Assembly (NCBI RefSeq): GCF_000325705.1
Contig: NC_019904.1
Span: forward strand, 70,001-134,000
Length of the DNA: 64,000 nt
From: Echinicola vietnamensis DSM 17526
GTDB lineage: Bacteria > Bacteroidota > Bacteroidia > Cytophagales > Cyclobacteriaceae
Direction: 5' to 3'
Below, in pieces: positions 49,746 to 56,320 of this stretch. Position numbers and translations under genes: made by a program. How positions within the stretch are numbered: the stretch's first letter is position 1; each line of letters begins with the position of its first letter. Under the pieces are notes generated by a model. That model was not told the DNA's origin, made no database searches, and saw only the letters and a list, made by a program, of their open reading frames with translations.

Positions 49746-49776
49746 TTGGTTTTTATAAATCCACCCGCTAATTTTG
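49746..49776 (+). promoter_or_regulatory. Promoter of the aromatic operon
   Basis: TTG (49746-49748), a 20-base spacer, then TAATTTTG (49769-49776), exact to TAnnTTTG. The predicted start is near 49780, about 2 bases before the leader ATG, so the leader transcript is almost leaderless. Confidence 0.6.
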
Positions 49777-49781
49777 GAGCC

Positions 49782-49877
49782 ATGATAAAACAAGCAGCAA
49801 GATATTTTACCTTTTTCTTTTTTTACTTTCGTCCCAAAGGTCGAATCGGAGCTGCTTATTGCCTGAATGAAAAATAA
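49782..49877 (+). CDS. Phe/Tyr-rich leader peptide of the aromatic operon
   Basis: A 31-codon frame: MIKQAARYFTFFFFYFRPKG, then RIGAAYCLNEK and TAA. Codons 8-16 (49803-49829) are Tyr Phe Thr Phe Phe Phe Phe Tyr Phe, so eight of nine are Phe or Tyr. GGAG lies 3 bases before the ATG, but may be upstream of the transcript start. This is the layout of pheL-type leader peptides whose stalled ribosome senses charged tRNA-Phe and tRNA-Tyr. It is not a normal protein gene. Confidence 0.85.
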   Translation: MIKQAARYFTFFFFYFRPKGRIGAAYCLNEK

Positions 49878-49927
49878 AATTCAAACATAAATTAAGAAGC
49901 CCGATTCGAAAGAGTCGGGCTTTTTTT
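49792..49927 (+). promoter_or_regulatory. Transcription attenuator of the aromatic operon
   Basis: Three mutually exclusive pairings are visible. (1) Early hairpin: AAGCAGC (49792-49798) with GCTGCTT (49851-49857), and inside it ACCTTT (49809-49814) with AAAGGT (49836-49841). (2) Antiterminator: TCGAATCGG (49841-49849) with CCGATTCGA (49901-49909), 9 bp. (3) Terminator 49897-49920, which shares 49901-49909. A ribosome stalled on the Phe/Tyr codons would cover ACCTTT, free TCGAATCGG and block the terminator. Pairings are read by eye; the mechanism follows the enterobacterial pheA and trp models. Confidence 0.8.
49897..49927 (+). terminator. Attenuator terminator before aroF
   Basis: AAGCCCGATTC, loop GAAA, GAGTCGGGCTT: an 11-bp stem with one G-T wobble, followed by seven T. 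It ends 20 bases before the aroF ATG. Confidence 0.92.
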
Positions 49928-49947: not shown

Positions 49948-51051
49948 ATGAAAGATCACTTAAAAACATCGGAATGGGGACTGGGTCTCAAAGGTCATGT
50001 CATCATCGCAGGCCCATGTAGTGCCGAAACTCCTGAGCAGGTAGAAAAGGTTTGCCTGGAAATGAAAGAGCAAAACATCATCCCTTCCATGTTCCGTGCG
50101 GGCATCTGGAAACCCAGAACCCGACCAGGAAGCTTCGAAGGAATCGGAGAAGATGGCTTGAAGTGGATGGAAATCGTTCGCCACCACCTGAACATCCCCA
50201 TTACCACGGAAGTAGGCAACACCGCCCACGTAGAACTAGCCCTAAAGCACAAGGTAGACGTGTTGTGGATCGGTGCCAGGACTACCGTAAACCCATTTGC
50301 CGTACAGGAAATTGCCGAAGCACTGAAAGGCACTGACATCCCTGTTATGGTGAAAAACCCGATGAACCCTGATCTGCAGCTTTGGATTGGTGCCTTGGAA
50401 CGCCTCCATGCAGTAGGTATCAACAAACTGGCCGCCATCCACAGGGGCTTCAGTGATGCTTACGACAAACGTTTCAGAAACAAACCAAACTGGTCCATGC
50501 CCATCCATCTGAAAAGAGAATGGAAAGGAATGGAAGTCATCAATGACCCTAGCCATATTGTAGGCAAAAGAGATGGGATCTTGGAAATCTCCCAAAGGGC
50601 CATCAACTTCGGACTGGACGGCCTAATGATCGAAACCCATCATGACCCGGACAATGCATGGAGTGACGCCAAACAACAAGTAACCCCTGCTCAGCTGAAA
50701 GACATCCTTTCCAAAATCGACTTCAAAACTCCCCTTGACTCCGAAAAACCAAGTGAAAAGCTGCACGATCTCAGATCGGCCATTGACCACATGGACGACC
50801 AGCTGATCGACTTGCTTGCGGAAAGATTTGCTGTAATCGACCAGATAGGAGCGCACAAGAGAGAGCATAAGCTGACGGTTTTTCAGTCAGACAGATGGAA
50901 AGAAGTGATGGACTCCAGAACTGACAAAGGAGTAAAAAAAGGACTGAGCGAGAAATTCATGAAAGAATTGTTATTTTCGATCCATGAAGAGTCCGTAAAA
51001 AGACAAGAAAAACAACTGAGAGCCGGAGACCCGGTAAACAAGAACGCTTAA
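49948..51051 (+). CDS. aroF: Bifunctional 3-deoxy-7-phosphoheptulonate synthase / chorismate mutase
   Basis: 367 residues. The N-terminal type Ib DAHP synthase barrel (about 1-260) has IAGPCSAETPEQ, MFRAGIWKPRTRPGSFEG and IHRGFSDAY. The C-terminal AroQ-type chorismate mutase (about 275-355) has LRSAIDHMDDQLIDLLAERF and AHKREHK. One protein thus makes the first intermediate of the pathway and the committed step to Phe and Tyr; the mutase domain often makes such enzymes sensitive to prephenate. First structural gene after the attenuator. Confidence 0.95.
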   Translation: MKDHLKTSEWGLGLKGHVIIAGPCSAETPEQVEKVCLEMKEQNIIPSMFRAGIWKPRTRPGSFEGIGEDGLKWMEIVRHHLNIPITTEVGNTAHVELALKHKVDVLWIGARTTVNPFAVQEIAEALKGTDIPVMVKNPMNPDLQLWIGALERLHAVGINKLAAIHRGFSDAYDKRFRNKPNWSMPIHLKREWKGMEVINDPSHIVGKRDGILEISQRAINFGLDGLMIETHHDPDNAWSDAKQQVTPAQLKDILSKIDFKTPLDSEKPSEKLHDLRSAIDHMDDQLIDLLAERFAVIDQIGAHKREHKLTVFQSDRWKEVMDSRTDKGVKKGLSEKFMKELLFSIHEESVKRQEKQLRAGDPVNKNA

Positions 51052-51076
51052 CTGAGATTTAAACCTAATCGATCCA

Positions 51077-52114
51077 TTGGAATCTATCATTTTCTCCACG
51101 CAAATCGCACCTGATTTGGAGAGGTTCTTGAAATCAAAGAACTTCTCCAAACTCGGTGTGATCACCGATAGCAACACCTCTCAAGCCTGCTATCCGCTCA
51201 TTCGGGAGGCATTGCCCCTGCATGAGCACTTTGCCTTTGAAGCAGGCGAGGTAAACAAAAACCTGGACACCTGCCAGAAAATATGGCAATGGATGACCGA
51301 TTGTGGCTTTGACAGAAAATCGCTGATCATCAACCTCGGTGGTGGTGTCACAGGCGATATGGGCGGATTTTGTGCCAGCACCTATAAACGTGGCGTAAAA
51401 TTCATCAATATCCCTACTACGCTACTATCCCAAGTAGATGCCAGCGTTGGCGGTAAGCTGGGAGTGGATTTTAATGGCTTCAAAAACCACATTGGGGTTT
51501 TTAACGAGCCTGAAGCAGTCATCATTTCTGCAGCTTTCCTATCTTCATTACCCCTTCCGGAACTTCGCTCGGGCTATGCCGAGGTTTTGAAGCACGGACT
51601 GATCAGAAACGAGAATTATTTTAACAGCCTTAAGCTCCAAAACTGGGAAGACCAACGCTGGACAGAGATCATCGAAAAGTCGGTATACATCAAAAAGGAT
51701 GTCGTCACCAAAGATCCCAAAGAAGACGGACTGCGAAAGATCCTTAACTTCGGCCACACGGTGGGGCACGCCGTGGAGTCTTTTTATTTGGACACCGAGC
51801 GGCATTTGCTCCATGGAGAGGCCATTGCTATCGGCATGATCGCAGAAGCTTACCTTTCCCAAAAGCACATCAGGCTCCCCAAGGAAGAATTGCAATCCAT
51901 CACCACAGCATTACTGGAGGTCTTTGGCAAAGTGGAAATCCCTAAAGAAGACTTGGACGCAATTGCGCAGCTTTGCTTTCAGGACAAAAAAAACGATGGA
52001 AAAACCATCAATTGCTCTTTGCTAAAAAAGATTGGTGAATGCGACTATAACATTGCCGTCAGCTTGGATGACATCATCGATTCGCTGCATTTTTACAACA
52101 ACCAACATTCATGA
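51077..52114 (+). CDS. aroB: 3-dehydroquinate synthase
   Basis: 345 residues. NAD-binding LGGGVTGDMGGFCASTYKRG, then PTTLLSQVDASVGGK, GYAEVLKHGLI and the zinc site FGHTVGHAVES plus LLHGEAIAIGM. It makes dehydroquinate from DAHP. The start appears to be TTG 51077, since there is no ATG between the in-frame stop upstream and residue 70 or so. It lies 25 bases after aroF; its stop overlaps the aroA ATG (ATGA). Confidence 0.94.
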   Translation: MESIIFSTQIAPDLERFLKSKNFSKLGVITDSNTSQACYPLIREALPLHEHFAFEAGEVNKNLDTCQKIWQWMTDCGFDRKSLIINLGGGVTGDMGGFCASTYKRGVKFINIPTTLLSQVDASVGGKLGVDFNGFKNHIGVFNEPEAVIISAAFLSSLPLPELRSGYAEVLKHGLIRNENYFNSLKLQNWEDQRWTEIIEKSVYIKKDVVTKDPKEDGLRKILNFGHTVGHAVESFYLDTERHLLHGEAIAIGMIAEAYLSQKHIRLPKEELQSITTALLEVFGKVEIPKEDLDAIAQLCFQDKKNDGKTINCSLLKKIGECDYNIAVSLDDIIDSLHFYNNQHS

Positions 52115-53328
52115 ACAACATCACACTACCCGTCAAAAACCATTTTGGCGAAGTAACCATACCACTGCCTTCTTCCAAAAGTGAAAGCAACAGGGTCCTG
52201 ATCGTGGATGCCCTCACAGAAGGCCAAAACCAAATCTCCAACCTCGCCGAAGCCCGCGATACCCAGACCATGATCCGGCTACTGGCCGAGGATCCGGAAA
52301 CATTGGACGTACTCGACGCGGGCACGACCATGCGGTTCCTGACCGCTTATGCTGCCCTTACCAATCGCCGCAAAACACTTACCGGAACACCAAGGATGTG
52401 CGAAAGGCCCATAGGAATCCTGGTCGATGCCTTAAGGGCAATCGGGGCAAAAATCGAATACAAAGGAAAGGAAGGCTATCCGCCGATGGAAACCCTCGGG
52501 TTTGAAAAGCAACTGACCAACAAGGTACAGATAAGAGGTGATGTCAGCAGCCAGTATATCTCTGCACTGTTGATGAATGCCCCGCTTTTGCCGGAAGGAC
52601 TGACACTTGAGCTTACGGGAAAAATTGGTTCCAAGACCTATATCACCATGACCTTGGAGCTGATGAAACAATTCGGAATAGCCTACTCCTTTGAAGGCAA
52701 CACCATTTCTATCGCTCCCCAATCCTACAAAAACACCTCCTTCGCGGTAGAAAGTGACTGGTCTGGTGCAAGTTATTGGTTCAGCTTGCTGGCATGTGCC
52801 GATGAAGGAAGTTTCTTCCTGAAAGGCCTGAAGGAAAATAGCCTCCAAGGCGATTCAAAAATCGTAGAGATCATGGACAAACTGGGGGTACAAAGTGAAT
52901 TTAAGGATGACGGCATCCTATTGACCAAAAAAGCCATCACAGGGTTGGGAAGCTATGATTTCACACATTGCCCCGACCTCGCCCAGACCGTGGCGGTTAC
53001 TTGCGCCCTGATCGGGCAAAAAAGCCAATTCACTGGATTGGAAAGCCTTCGCATCAAAGAAACCGACAGGATCTACGCCTTACAACAGGAACTGGCAAAA
53101 TTCAATGCGAAATTGGAAGAAGGCGAAAACGGTGCATTTACCGTGATCCCTTCCACTGATATCCCGGCTAACGTGACCATTGAAACTTATGATGATCACC
53201 GCATGGGCATGGCGTTTATGCCATTGGTTACCAAGACATCGGTGACCCTCCTCGACAAGGAAGTGGTCAACAAGTCTTACCCAAGTTTCTGGAAACACTG
53301 CGTGCTAGCAGGAATAGAGGCCCAATAA
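52111..53328 (+). CDS. aroA: 3-phosphoshikimate 1-carboxyvinyltransferase (EPSP synthase)
   Basis: 405 residues. LPSSKSESNRVLIVDAL near the start, LDAGTTMRFLTAYAAL, GDVSSQYISALLMNAP, and RIKETDRIYAL then TYDDHRMGMAF near the end are the phosphate and PEP-binding motifs. It joins PEP to shikimate-3-phosphate. The substrate-binding LxAGTxxRF motif is standard. ATG overlaps the aroB stop. Confidence 0.96.
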   Translation: MNNITLPVKNHFGEVTIPLPSSKSESNRVLIVDALTEGQNQISNLAEARDTQTMIRLLAEDPETLDVLDAGTTMRFLTAYAALTNRRKTLTGTPRMCERPIGILVDALRAIGAKIEYKGKEGYPPMETLGFEKQLTNKVQIRGDVSSQYISALLMNAPLLPEGLTLELTGKIGSKTYITMTLELMKQFGIAYSFEGNTISIAPQSYKNTSFAVESDWSGASYWFSLLACADEGSFFLKGLKENSLQGDSKIVEIMDKLGVQSEFKDDGILLTKKAITGLGSYDFTHCPDLAQTVAVTCALIGQKSQFTGLESLRIKETDRIYALQQELAKFNAKLEEGENGAFTVIPSTDIPANVTIETYDDHRMGMAFMPLVTKTSVTLLDKEVVNKSYPSFWKHCVLAGIEAQ

Positions 53329-53431
53329 AAGGACTTCCATTGGGCGGCTCCGCCAGAAGACACATCCTGTCCTTTGCTGCGGCAATAAACACCGTCTTCA
53401 GGCCTCGCAAGCTCATTATTTTAAACATTAA

Positions 53432-54283
53432 TTGGTAAAACAAGTGACCTCGACACCACATCAGCAAAAAGTAGCCATCCAAGGAATCAAAGGCTCCTAC
53501 CATTACCAGGTGGCCCTGAACCAATTTGGCCAAGACATTCATGTCATCGAGTGCCTGACCTTTTCGGACCTTGTCAAAAGCATCACTTCGAATGATGCTG
53601 ACATTGGTGTTTTGGCACTGGAAAATTCCATAGCCGGGGCCATCCTTCCCAATTATGACCTGATGGACAGAAACAACCTTCAGGTCATAGGTGAATTTTA
53701 CCTCCCCATTTCGCATCAATTAATGGTGCTAAAGGGGCAATCCATTGACGACATCACCGAAGTCCGGTCACACCCCATGGCCTTGCTGCAGTGCAAGGCT
53801 TTCTTTGAACAATATCCGCAAATCAAATTGATCGAAGATTTGGACACGGCATCAGTGGCCAAGGAAATCAGTGAACAGCACCTCCAAGGAGTGGGAGCCA
53901 TTGCCGGAAAGTCAGCCGCTGAATTTTACGGACTGGATATTTTAGCCTCTGATATTCAAACCATCAAAAACAACATCACGCGTTTCTGTATCGTTAAAAA
54001 TGCAGCTGACGCCAAACCGGTAATAGGGTTTGACAAGGCTTCGATCAAGGTCACCATTAAAAACGAACAAGGCAGCTTGGCCAAGGTCCTCACGACCATG
54101 AGTGCCTATCGGCTGGATTTGACCAAGATCCAGTCATTGCCCGTCATCGACCAACCGTGGCATTATGCCTTTTTCATTGACTTGCTCTTCGAAAACCTAG
54201 AGGATTACCAACAGGCCCTGAAAGAGCTGAAAGCCAATGGCCATCAAATCAAAGTTTTGGGAGAATACAAAAACACAAAATAG
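53432..54283 (+). CDS. pheA: Prephenate dehydratase
   Basis: 283 residues without a chorismate mutase domain, which is supplied by AroF. The catalytic region (about 15-195) has AIQGIKGSYHYQVALNQF, GVLALENSIAGAI and the Thr-Arg-Phe-like NNITRFCIV. The ACT domain (about 208-283) has KNEQGSLAKVLTTMSAYRLDLTKIQS for Phe feedback. Start is TTG 53432, or GTG 53444; no ATG is available. A 100-base gap with small hairpins separates it from aroA. Confidence 0.93.
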   Translation: MVKQVTSTPHQQKVAIQGIKGSYHYQVALNQFGQDIHVIECLTFSDLVKSITSNDADIGVLALENSIAGAILPNYDLMDRNNLQVIGEFYLPISHQLMVLKGQSIDDITEVRSHPMALLQCKAFFEQYPQIKLIEDLDTASVAKEISEQHLQGVGAIAGKSAAEFYGLDILASDIQTIKNNITRFCIVKNAADAKPVIGFDKASIKVTIKNEQGSLAKVLTTMSAYRLDLTKIQSLPVIDQPWHYAFFIDLLFENLEDYQQALKELKANGHQIKVLGEYKNTK

Positions 54284-54288
54284 CCGCC

Positions 54289-55449
54289 ATGATCGCTCCA
54301 GCACATCGCCTTGCCAACGTCAAAGAATACTACTTTTCCAAAAAGTTACGTGAGGTCGCCCGCCTGAAAGCGGAGGGGCATCCCATCATCAACATGGGCA
54401 TTGGCAGCCCTGACCTGCCGCCGCACCCAAGTGTTACCGAAGCCCTGAACCACTCCAGCGCACAACCGACGTCCCATGGCTACCAAAGCTACCAAGGCAT
54501 TCCGGCCTTGCGGGAAGCCATTGCCAGTTTTTATCAAAAACACTACGCGGTTTCCCTTTCCCCTACCGACGAAATATTGCCCATGATGGGCTCCAAAGAA
54601 GCCATCATGCACATATCATTGGCTTACCTTAACCCCGGCGACAAGGTACTGATTCCCAACCCCGGCTACCCTACCTATTCTTCTGTCACCGAATTGGTCG
54701 GAGCCAAAGCGGTTTATTACGATCTCAAAGAGGAAAACCAATGGCTTCCGGACATCGGCCAGCTGGAAGAACTGGCGCAATCAGGCATTAAGCTGATGTG
54801 GATCAACTATCCCCACATGCCCACCGGTGCCAATGCCTCCCGAGAGGCCTTGGAAGCACTGGTCACTTTTGCCAAAAAGCATCAGATCCTATTGGTCAAC
54901 GACAATCCATACAGCTTTATCCTCACGCAGAGTCCAATCAGTATCCTATCCATTGACGGCGCAAAGGACATTGCCTTAGAATTGAATTCGCTCAGCAAGA
55001 CCTTTAACATGCCCGGATGGAGAGTGGGCATGCTCTGCGGTCAGGCCAGCTACTTACAGGAAGTCCTAAAGGTCAAAAGCAACATGGACTCGGGGATGTT
55101 CCTGGGCATCCAGGAAGGTGCCATTGCAGCCTTGAACCTCGATCAAAGGTGGTTTGACCAGATGGACGCCATCTACCACAAAAGACGGGAAGCCGTTTGG
55201 AAATTGGCAGAAAGGGTTGGTGCCATTTGTGAGCGAAACAGTGCTGGAATGTTTGTTTGGGCAAAACTGGCCACCCAAACCACCCCTTCAGCACTTGTGG
55301 ACAAGCTGTTGTACGAAAACCATATCTTTATCACGCCGGGAGACATTTTTGGGAGTAATGGACATGGCTACATCAGGTTCTCCTTGTGCGTGCCGGAAAA
55401 CCTGATCCAGGAAGCTTTTGACCGGGTAAACAGCACTTGGACAAAATAA
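54289..55449 (+). CDS. Class I/II aminotransferase, probably aromatic
   Basis: 386 residues, PLP fold type I. INMGIGSPDLPPH, GYQSYQGIPALREAIASF, NPGYPTY, and the PLP-lysine motif SLSKTFNMPGWRVGM are clear; GYIRFSLCVPEN near the end has the substrate-carboxylate Arg. It resembles LL-diaminopimelate and aromatic aminotransferases. Its place between pheA and tyrA, 5 bases after pheA, suggests it aminates phenylpyruvate and 4-hydroxyphenylpyruvate, or prephenate. Confidence 0.88.
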   Translation: MIAPAHRLANVKEYYFSKKLREVARLKAEGHPIINMGIGSPDLPPHPSVTEALNHSSAQPTSHGYQSYQGIPALREAIASFYQKHYAVSLSPTDEILPMMGSKEAIMHISLAYLNPGDKVLIPNPGYPTYSSVTELVGAKAVYYDLKEENQWLPDIGQLEELAQSGIKLMWINYPHMPTGANASREALEALVTFAKKHQILLVNDNPYSFILTQSPISILSIDGAKDIALELNSLSKTFNMPGWRVGMLCGQASYLQEVLKVKSNMDSGMFLGIQEGAIAALNLDQRWFDQMDAIYHKRREAVWKLAERVGAICERNSAGMFVWAKLATQTTPSALVDKLLYENHIFITPGDIFGSNGHGYIRFSLCVPENLIQEAFDRVNSTWTK

Positions 55450-55471
55450 AAGGACAGAAAACACGATCCAT

Positions 55472-56320
55472 ATGAAGCAAATTCACATTATCGGACTTGG
55501 TCTTTTGGGCGGCTCTTTTTCACTTGGGCTCAAAAAAGCCTTGACGGGACTATCTGTTTCCGGATTTGACTTAAACAAGGGCCACCTGCAAGAAGCCTTG
55601 TCACTCGGCATCATCGATCGGGTCAGCGAAACCGTTCCTGCAGACACCGACTTGGTCATCGTGGCCACACCGGTGGATACCATCAGTGGAATTGTCAGTC
55701 GTTTGCTCGATCATATTCCCCCTGAAACCCTTGTTGTAGATTTTGGCTCTACCAAAGAACATATCTGCTCTTCCGTATCCGGTCACGCCCATCGCCAAAA
55801 CTTCCTGGCCGCCCACCCCATCGCCGGCACAGAGTATGCAGGTCCTTCGGCTGCTTTTCCAGACCTTCTGAAAGGAAAGATCATGATCTTGTGCGAAACG
55901 GATAAAACGGGTCCGGACCTTTGTAAGAAAGCCTATCGAGCTTTTGAAGCCCTTGAAATGCAAATCCGCATCATGGGGCCGCACGAGCACGACAACCAGC
56001 TCGCTTTCGTATCCCATTTGTCGCATATCAGCTCGTTTATGCTCGGCAAAACCGTACTCGATAAAATGGAGGATGACAAACACATCCTGAACATGGCTGG
56101 GAGCGGATTTGCCTCCACCGTCAGGCTGGCCAAAAGTTCACCATCGATGTGGACGCCTATCATGAAAGAAAACAAAGAAAATATCCTTGAAGCATTGAAT
56201 GGCTACATCGAAAACCTGGCATCCTTCAGAGACCACCTGGTAAATGACCAATACGAGGAATTGTCAAAAAACATGAAAAATGCCAATCAGATCGGTCAAA
56301 TCTTAAACTTTAAGAGCTGA
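55472..56320 (+). CDS. tyrA: Prephenate dehydrogenase
   Basis: 282 residues. N-terminal Rossmann motif IIGLGLLGGSFSLGLK, then VDFGSTKEHI and AAHPIAGTEYAGP, and a helical C-terminal domain with FVSHLSHISSFMLG. It oxidises prephenate to 4-hydroxyphenylpyruvate. There is no ACT domain, so Tyr feedback may be weak and attenuation more important. Last gene of the operon, 22 bases after the aminotransferase. Confidence 0.94.
   Translation: MKQIHIIGLGLLGGSFSLGLKKALTGLSVSGFDLNKGHLQEALSLGIIDRVSETVPADTDLVIVATPVDTISGIVSRLLDHIPPETLVVDFGSTKEHICSSVSGHAHRQNFLAAHPIAGTEYAGPSAAFPDLLKGKIMILCETDKTGPDLCKKAYRAFEALEMQIRIMGPHEHDNQLAFVSHLSHISSFMLGKTVLDKMEDDKHILNMAGSGFASTVRLAKSSPSMWTPIMKENKENILEALNGYIENLASFRDHLVNDQYEELSKNMKNANQIGQILNFKS

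Follow-up and report, generated by a model that had tools for sequence, protein, structure and literature searches.

A probable Phe/Tyr leader-peptide attenuator with a predicted leaderless mRNA ahead of an aromatic amino acid gene cluster in Echinicola vietnamensis, and related leaders in Bacteroidia

The window analysed here is a stretch of 64,000 nucleotides of Echinicola vietnamensis DSM 17526 DNA, in which a short leader region precedes six co-directional open reading frames spanning 49948-56320 (Table 1). The earlier note on this DNA had assigned these, in order, to aroF-chorismate mutase, aroB, aroA, pheA, an aminotransferase and tyrA, and family matches agree with all six assignments; for the aminotransferase, no NCBIfam cut-off was reached among the matches listed. 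From their order and spacing we infer that the six genes form one operon. The same note had described, ahead of aroF, a promoter match, a 31-codon frame with Phe or Tyr in eight of nine consecutive codons and a strong terminator with an 11-bp stem, and each is present at the positions tabulated.

Table 1. Features of the leader region and of the genes downstream (positions in the window).
Feature	Position	Strand	Details
Bacteroidota-type promoter	49746..49776	+	TTGG (-33) 49746-49749, 19-nt spacer, TAATTTTG (-7) 49769-49776
Gap between -7 box and AUG, 5 nt	49777..49781	+	predicted transcription start 49781-49782, 5' UTR 0-1 nt
Leader peptide ORF	49782..49877	+	31 codons; ATG 49782, stop 49875-49877
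Segment 1, 5' arm of start-proximal anti-antiterminator stem (predicted)	49792..49798	+	fold, permutation test
Control codons 8-16	49803..49829	+	Phe/Tyr in 8/9
Inner protector hairpin (predicted)	49828..49845	+	49828-49834/49839-49845, covers part of segment 2; P ~0.5
Segment 2, antiterminator 5' arm	49841..49853	+	97.9% of cells paired with segment 3
3' arm of start-proximal anti-antiterminator stem (predicted)	49851..49857	+	fold, permutation test
Segment 3, antiterminator 3' arm	49897..49909	+	arm 49898-49909, overlaps terminator 5' arm 49897-49907
Intrinsic terminator	49897..49927	+	11-bp stem 49897-49907/49912-49922, GAAA loop, T run to 49927
DAHP synthase-chorismate mutase (aroF)	49948..51051	+	family matches
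aroB, 3-dehydroquinate synthase	51077..52114	+	family matches
aroA, EPSP synthase	52111..53328	+	family matches
Prephenate dehydratase (pheA)	53432..54283	+	family matches
Class I/II aminotransferase, presumably aromatic	54289..55449	+	family match
Prephenate dehydrogenase (tyrA)	55472..56320	+	family matches

The leader frame encodes MIKQAARYFTFFFFYFRPKGRIGAAYCLNEK, with codons 8-16 reading Y F T F F F F Y F. It is thus a short upstream frame rich in codons for the end products of the genes behind it, followed by an intrinsic terminator ahead of the first gene, as in a classical attenuator. As a chance control, 70 upstream regions were scanned over their final 400 nt; frames with at least seven of eight codons for Phe, Tyr or Trp occurred 22 times on the forward strand and never on the reverse strand or in shuffles. 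Close relatives were taken as the best 80 of 121 loci from a scan of named genomes, presumably all Cyclobacteriaceae except for L105 and L108, both metagenome records under the label Spirosoma fluviale; the nearest are Echinicola. The earlier note had proposed looking among relatives for a conserved Phe/Tyr frame and covarying stems. The frame, together with the promoter geometry, is kept in 79 of these best 80 of 121 loci, and aroF is followed by aroB and aroA in all 80. The best 30 loci of a separate family search, the window's own genome included, also carry the leader (at L020 it was placed by eye), and as this set overlaps the named species it is not independent. At ten loci whose aroF is only 56-65% identical (L112-L121), a Phe/Tyr-rich peptide of otherwise unrelated sequence and a terminator are present in every case. 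Upstream of more distant aroF homologues and of upstream paralogues, a convincing Phe/Tyr leader was found in none of 30 regions (L122-L151), the weak matches there having four or five aromatic codons of eight.

Substitutions in the leader follow a coding-like pattern. Our alignment A1 holds 78 rows, 74 of them distinct, from the window and 77 named loci (L070, L108 and L109 were left out). In the 73 of 74 distinct rows that share a register, diversity over codons 8-16 is 0.000 at the first codon position, 0.109 at the second and 0.166 at the third, and the changes are mostly third-base T/C exchanges, swaps between Phe and Tyr, and variation at codon 10, the sole non-aromatic codon. With such a pattern, the leader may well be translated.

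Some individual loci depart from the common arrangement. L108, the sole locus without the leader among the best 80 of 121, has a longer aroF match than the others (1583 nt). At L109 (Nitritalea), with a leader upstream of position 2501, the aromatic run is frame-shifted into Leu codons while the RNA segments are kept, which could reflect either a sequencing error or a decaying sensor. In 24 of the best 80 of 121 named loci (e.g. L036, L038, L086), a second DAHP synthase-chorismate mutase gene, less than 65% identical to the operon copy, lies 329-818 nt upstream on the same strand. The attenuator there sits between the two paralogues, so the upstream copy would escape it.

The start codon of the leader lies only 5 nt behind the -7 box, a proximity that the earlier note did not record. 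In the 79 leader-bearing loci from the best 80 of 121, this gap is 4 nt in 75 and 5 nt in four, all of them Echinicola; the box has the form TAnnTTTG, or TACATTTA in 20, and its distance from the TTTG/NTTG element is 19 nt in 69 loci, 20 nt in eight and 21 nt in one, with no such element found in one. In Flavobacterium psychrophilum the sigma-A box spans -12 to -5 (PMC9723704, available part). With a box so placed, a gap of 4 nt makes the A of the AUG position +1, and by the same measure transcription of the leader would begin on the AUG or one base before it, the geometry of a leaderless leader-peptide mRNA. Given attenuation by the Phe/Tyr leader, we consider it likely from this spacing that the leader mRNA is leaderless.

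A variant that is compatible with attenuation has the real start further upstream, with an ordinary 5' UTR. Leaderless mRNAs are a minority in the phylum, amounting to 5.5% in F. psychrophilum (PMC9723704, available part), and about 3.7% of 5' UTRs are shorter than 10 nt in Bacteroides thetaiotaomicron (PMC7366714); moreover, a chance match of box and AUG at such a spacing is expected about once per 64 kb. Since a single match is not rare by chance, the evidence for a leaderless start is the conservation of the spacing. An upstream start is unlikely against a gap confined to 4-5 nt in 79 of 79 loci from the best 80 of 121, with the -33 element at 19-21 nt in 78, and against the larger gaps of comparison leaders: 8-50 nt before pheA (exact boxes in 11 of 20 leaders, the other nine having no exact box within 75 nt) and 10-53 nt for his, trp and ilv leaders. 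Among the ten diverged relatives the gap is 4 nt in seven, 6 nt in L120, and 5 nt (L118) and 7 nt (L119) behind imperfect boxes.

The RNA between 49783 and 49927 folds better than 200 of 200 shuffles (z -3.7). Its terminator, with a stem energy of -18.4 kcal/mol, is paired in 99.1% of the cells of alignment A1, and three of its pairs have changed on both sides. The 9-bp alternative pairing between 49841-49849 and 49901-49909 put forward in the earlier note is exact, and grows to 12 bp through three more pairs (49851-49853/49898-49900) around one bulged base. By complementarity and spacing, this antiterminator uses the 5' arm of the terminator, and the two structures exclude each other. The pairing is nearly invariant in A1 (no two-sided changes, not above shuffles), so that covariation inside the family gives no evidence for or against it.

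A stem that would keep segment 2 from acting lies close to the start codon. Before segment 3 has been transcribed, its core (49794-49798/49851-49855) is predicted to form in the nascent chain with a probability of about 1.0. Column-wise counting on A1 blurs this stem because its arm shifts by one codon between clades, and was replaced by a comparison of cognate with non-cognate partners. In the ten diverged leaders, some of which share a genus and one of which (L115) is a near-duplicate, pairing scores averaged 17.9 with the species' own partner vs 12.9 with that of another species, a difference reached in 1 of 20,000 permutations; with L115 dropped and the window and one Algoriphagus leader added (11 leaders), it was reached in 0 of 20,000. 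By this comparison the start-proximal stem is kept by compensating changes, and it is the best evidence that an anti-antiterminator has been under selection. The 5' arm of this main switch stem falls in codons 3-6, upstream of the control codons, a point on which the earlier reading needs correcting. An inner hairpin, the predicted protector, covers part of segment 2, with weaker covariation. It is paired in 79.2% of cells and has three two-sided pairs, and its covariation score was reached by 0 of 500 shuffles; a control slid by -3 equals it in two-sided changes (3 pairs, 17 cells) and scores 0.048 vs 0.061. Its four outer pairs hold in 74 of 74 rows with one G-C to U-A change, and the inner three are variable and often broken. 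The covarying stems sought among relatives are the terminator and the start-proximal stem, the protector hairpin being the weaker case.

We consider it very probable that ribosome-mediated attenuation by this leader, sensing charged tRNA-Phe and tRNA-Tyr, controls the whole Phe/Tyr operon. In the sequence of transcription start, translation, stalling and amino-acid response that we infer, RNA polymerase would start at the AUG or one base before it, so that a ribosome could bind the emerging 5' end directly, with no 5' UTR. Were Phe- or Tyr-tRNA short, the ribosome would stall in codons 8-16 and displace the start-proximal stem and the protector hairpin, freeing segment 2 to pair with segment 3 (49898-49909); the terminator could then not form and the operon would be read. 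With both Phe and Tyr plentiful, the ribosome would run over segment 2, or segment 2 would refold into the 1:2 stem behind it, the terminator (49897-49922) would form and transcription would stop near 49927. Without translation, the 1:2 stem would form first and termination would be the default.

Folding with the ribosome represented by an assumed mask of about 30 nt gives the antiterminator a probability of 0.97 when the A site is at any of codons 8-16, 0.71 and 0.46 at codons 17 and 18, and 0 at codons 20, 22, 24 and 28. The Phe/Tyr run thus ends at the point from which the ribosome would start to mask segment 2. Averaged across the 74 rows, the probability is 0.94 with the A site at codons 9-16 and 0.00 at codon 26. 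With the mask as assumed, a stalled ribosome would disrupt the anti-antiterminator stem. In a nascent chain ending before segment 3, the 1:2 stem has a probability of about 1 and the protector about 0.5. When the chain ends before the 3' arm of the terminator and no ribosome is present, equilibrium favours the antiterminator (P 0.97; mean 0.89 over 74 rows), and it does so with a ribosome at the stop codon (codon 31-32; P 0.97, mean 0.93 at codon 31). Termination, the off state, must therefore depend on kinetics; equilibrium folding alone did not reproduce it, and the nascent-chain calculation suggests a kinetic route. Once the chain includes the whole terminator, termination is the preferred fold in every case.

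The spacing of these elements is similar in other leaders. A terminator was found in 25 of 31 leaders (the window, the ten diverged relatives and 14 pheA leaders), and in these the distance from the last aromatic codon to the start of the best antiterminator segment is 5-17 nt (median 11). Its complement beats shuffles at 15/300 or better in 20 of the 25, and not in L117, L120, L182, L183 and L201. The classical ribosome-stalling mechanism proposed earlier is supported by anatomy, conservation, covariation, coding-type substitutions and spacing; what that proposal lacked is an mRNA that is probably leaderless.

Leaders of this kind also occur where pheA stands without aroF before it. The prephenate dehydratase family was found in 95 of 109 genomes of the phylum, 24 of them in the window's class. 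We examined the regions upstream of pheA in 22 of these 24, the other two (G000, G074) having an aroF-first operon, and found aromatic-rich leaders in 20 of the 22; these do not show the leaderless geometry. The two class loci with no aromatic leader (L185, L199) belong to one genus. Leaders were listed at a looser threshold of five aromatic codons in eight, for which chance matches occur elsewhere in the same loci, and four (L186, L187, L194, L196) have only that number. A terminator was found in 14 of the 20. L182 has two aromatic-rich short frames in tandem before pheA. Outside the class, such a leader was seen in none of the 36 genomes examined, of 71 with a match (one region being only 283 nt long).

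An RNA model derived from the family reaches E <=0.01 in 41 of 212 genomes of the order, 16 of them with strong matches (at least 140 bits). Among 14 weaker places (36.6 to 52.1 bits), an aromatic leader is present in eight (L249, L250, L252, L253, L254, L258, L261, L262) and not in the other six; gene names at L249, L250, L252, L253, L254 and L262 come from protein starts read by eye. Codons for Phe, Tyr and Trp occur together in the leaders ahead of DAHP synthase at L253, L254 and L262, in other families of the order, which fits the common pathway; the leaderless geometry was not seen at these three.

Elsewhere in the window's own genome (G000), leader codons follow the product of the genes downstream. 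trpE is preceded by a Trp leader (L228), ilvD by one with Ile, Leu and Val codons (L223) and hisG by a His leader (L217), and outside the window, at G000:C1:2985303 (L292), a Tyr leader, MKNLSVKYYSYYYHFLPEKD, with a terminator precedes phenylalanine hydroxylase. Terminators were seen for the ilvD and trpE leaders; for the his leader one was looked for and not found. The antiterminator complement stands above shuffles for the ilvD and phenylalanine hydroxylase leaders of this genome and not for either trpE leader tried (154/300, 134/300). A match to the Bacteroidales small SRP RNA lies upstream of trpE (L228:233-328, minus strand).

Phenylalanine hydroxylase is present in 60 of 88 genomes of the family, and a Tyr-rich leader with a terminator precedes it in 11 of the best 30 loci. 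Ten of these 11 leaders have at most two Phe codons, and L264 has four. The RNA-model search added three more, two of whose three genes were confirmed as phenylalanine 4-monooxygenase. Tyr-rich, mostly Phe-poor leaders with terminators stand at L292, L252, L258, L261, L264, L266, L267, L271, L272, L274, L275, L278, L279 and L286. Judged on sequence, these are apparent Tyr-specific attenuators of phenylalanine 4-monooxygenase. Of the 13 scored (L278, nearly the same as L274, was left out), five have a complement that beats shuffles at 15/300 or better, so that the hydroxylase leaders are weaker cases individually. We found no leader-peptide attenuator of phenylalanine hydroxylase in the literature searched, and the available part of a review (PMC11802643) does not mention one.

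That codon identity tracks the downstream pathway also bears on what else the region ahead of aroF could be. From promoter to terminator the unit measures about 146 nt, and a small RNA would be released from it; Sinorhizobium meliloti rnTrpL, which starts at the trpL AUG, acts in trans (PMC7298713, available part). The 5' region might then act in trans as a self-terminated small RNA, or be a terminator that leaks into the operon without control, the frame being incidental in either case. We regard this as very unlikely, given the tracking of the pathway by the codons, the conservation of Phe/Tyr at codon level across unrelated peptides and the presence of an antiterminator. The leader may have an additional trans role beside attenuation. 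Less probable still is small-molecule sensing by a nascent-chain arrest peptide, formed by the conserved C-terminal half of the leader (FRPxGRIGAAYC), to which the Phe/Tyr run would contribute no more than a hydrophobic stretch: although RIGA.Y is nearly invariant inside the close clade, this part encodes RNA segment 2 and an arm of the 1:2 stem, the codons past it stop early in L045, L058, L065 and L075, and diverged relatives differ at the C-terminus while keeping the Phe/Tyr codons and the pairings. A riboswitch or T-box was rejected, as none of 18 matches up to E 1 reaches its gathering score and none is of either kind. The Rfam Phe_leader model (RF01859) gives the window leader 26.9 bits, below its gathering cut-off of 55, and the PyrR binding-site model 25.8 of 54 bits. 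Twenty further loci scanned at gathering level yielded one match, to a small SRP RNA, and none for the leaders.

Returning to attenuation, we think it somewhat probable that the Cyclobacteriaceae aromatic leaders are a leaderless form, with the AUG welded to the -7 box, within a class-wide set of Bacteroidia attenuators whose codons follow the pathway. An AUG at the box would let a ribosome load on the first nascent nucleotides before the switch stem, whose 3' arm is about 70 nt downstream, can exist. The set would comprise Phe/Tyr leaders before pheA or aroF, Phe/Tyr/Trp leaders before some DAHP synthases, and leaders of nearly Tyr alone before phenylalanine hydroxylase. Taken together, the results suggest a mechanism that is ordinary in principle and strongly supported, unusual in its predicted leaderless start, and more widespread in the class than the literature searched conveys. 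The system is a well-defined case of attenuation in Bacteroidota, both conserved and open to testing. It predicts which amino acids regulate which operons, provides a clean setting in which to study how leaderless mRNAs are initiated and how transcription couples to translation in the phylum, and yields alignments of an RNA element with no Rfam match at gathering level. The literature searched, which leaves out Lopatovskaya et al. 2010, reportedly a comparative study of attenuation, holds only brief mentions of attenuation in Bacteroidota.

Among known systems, a similar layout is found in the pheL/pheA attenuator of Escherichia coli, with a Phe-rich leader, a terminator and an antiterminator. 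The system described here resembles its enterobacterial counterparts in all three and in the direction of its logic; unlike them, it uses Tyr codons too, its main switch stem begins before the control codons, and its start is leaderless or nearly so, as predicted. Nearer at hand is F. psychrophilum, which belongs to the same class as the window's organism. Strong clues for leader-peptide attenuation have been reported upstream of its amino-acid operons (PMC9723704, available part), an arrangement like that seen here, so the earlier remark that the mechanism is little described in Bacteroidota is fair, but it is not undescribed. The available part of that paper, whose lists stand in supplements, mentions neither the leaderless geometry nor an aromatic leader; it does report that Bacteroidota mRNAs are without Shine-Dalgarno sequences (PMC9723704).

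Also among the closest known systems is aroR of Corynebacterium glutamicum, where a Phe-Tyr-Phe leader precedes a DAHP synthase operon that is induced through stalling upon Phe limitation and on which Tyr availability has no effect (PMC11802643, available part). Both systems place an aromatic leader upstream of a DAHP synthase operon, whereas the one described here belongs to another phylum and has another promoter, eight aromatic codons, and both the Phe and Tyr terminal branches in its operon. Corynebacterial leader transcripts are reportedly often leaderless (Neshat et al. 2014). Leaderless initiation has been discussed for the ilvBNC leader (PMC11857589, available part), and leader transcripts begin at the leader peptide AUG for trpL of S. 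meliloti (PMC7298713, available part) and for leuL, trpL and ilvL of Streptomyces lividans (PMC8079986, available part). Those leaders belong to other phyla and other amino acids, whereas here conservation ties the AUG to the Bacteroidota -7 box.
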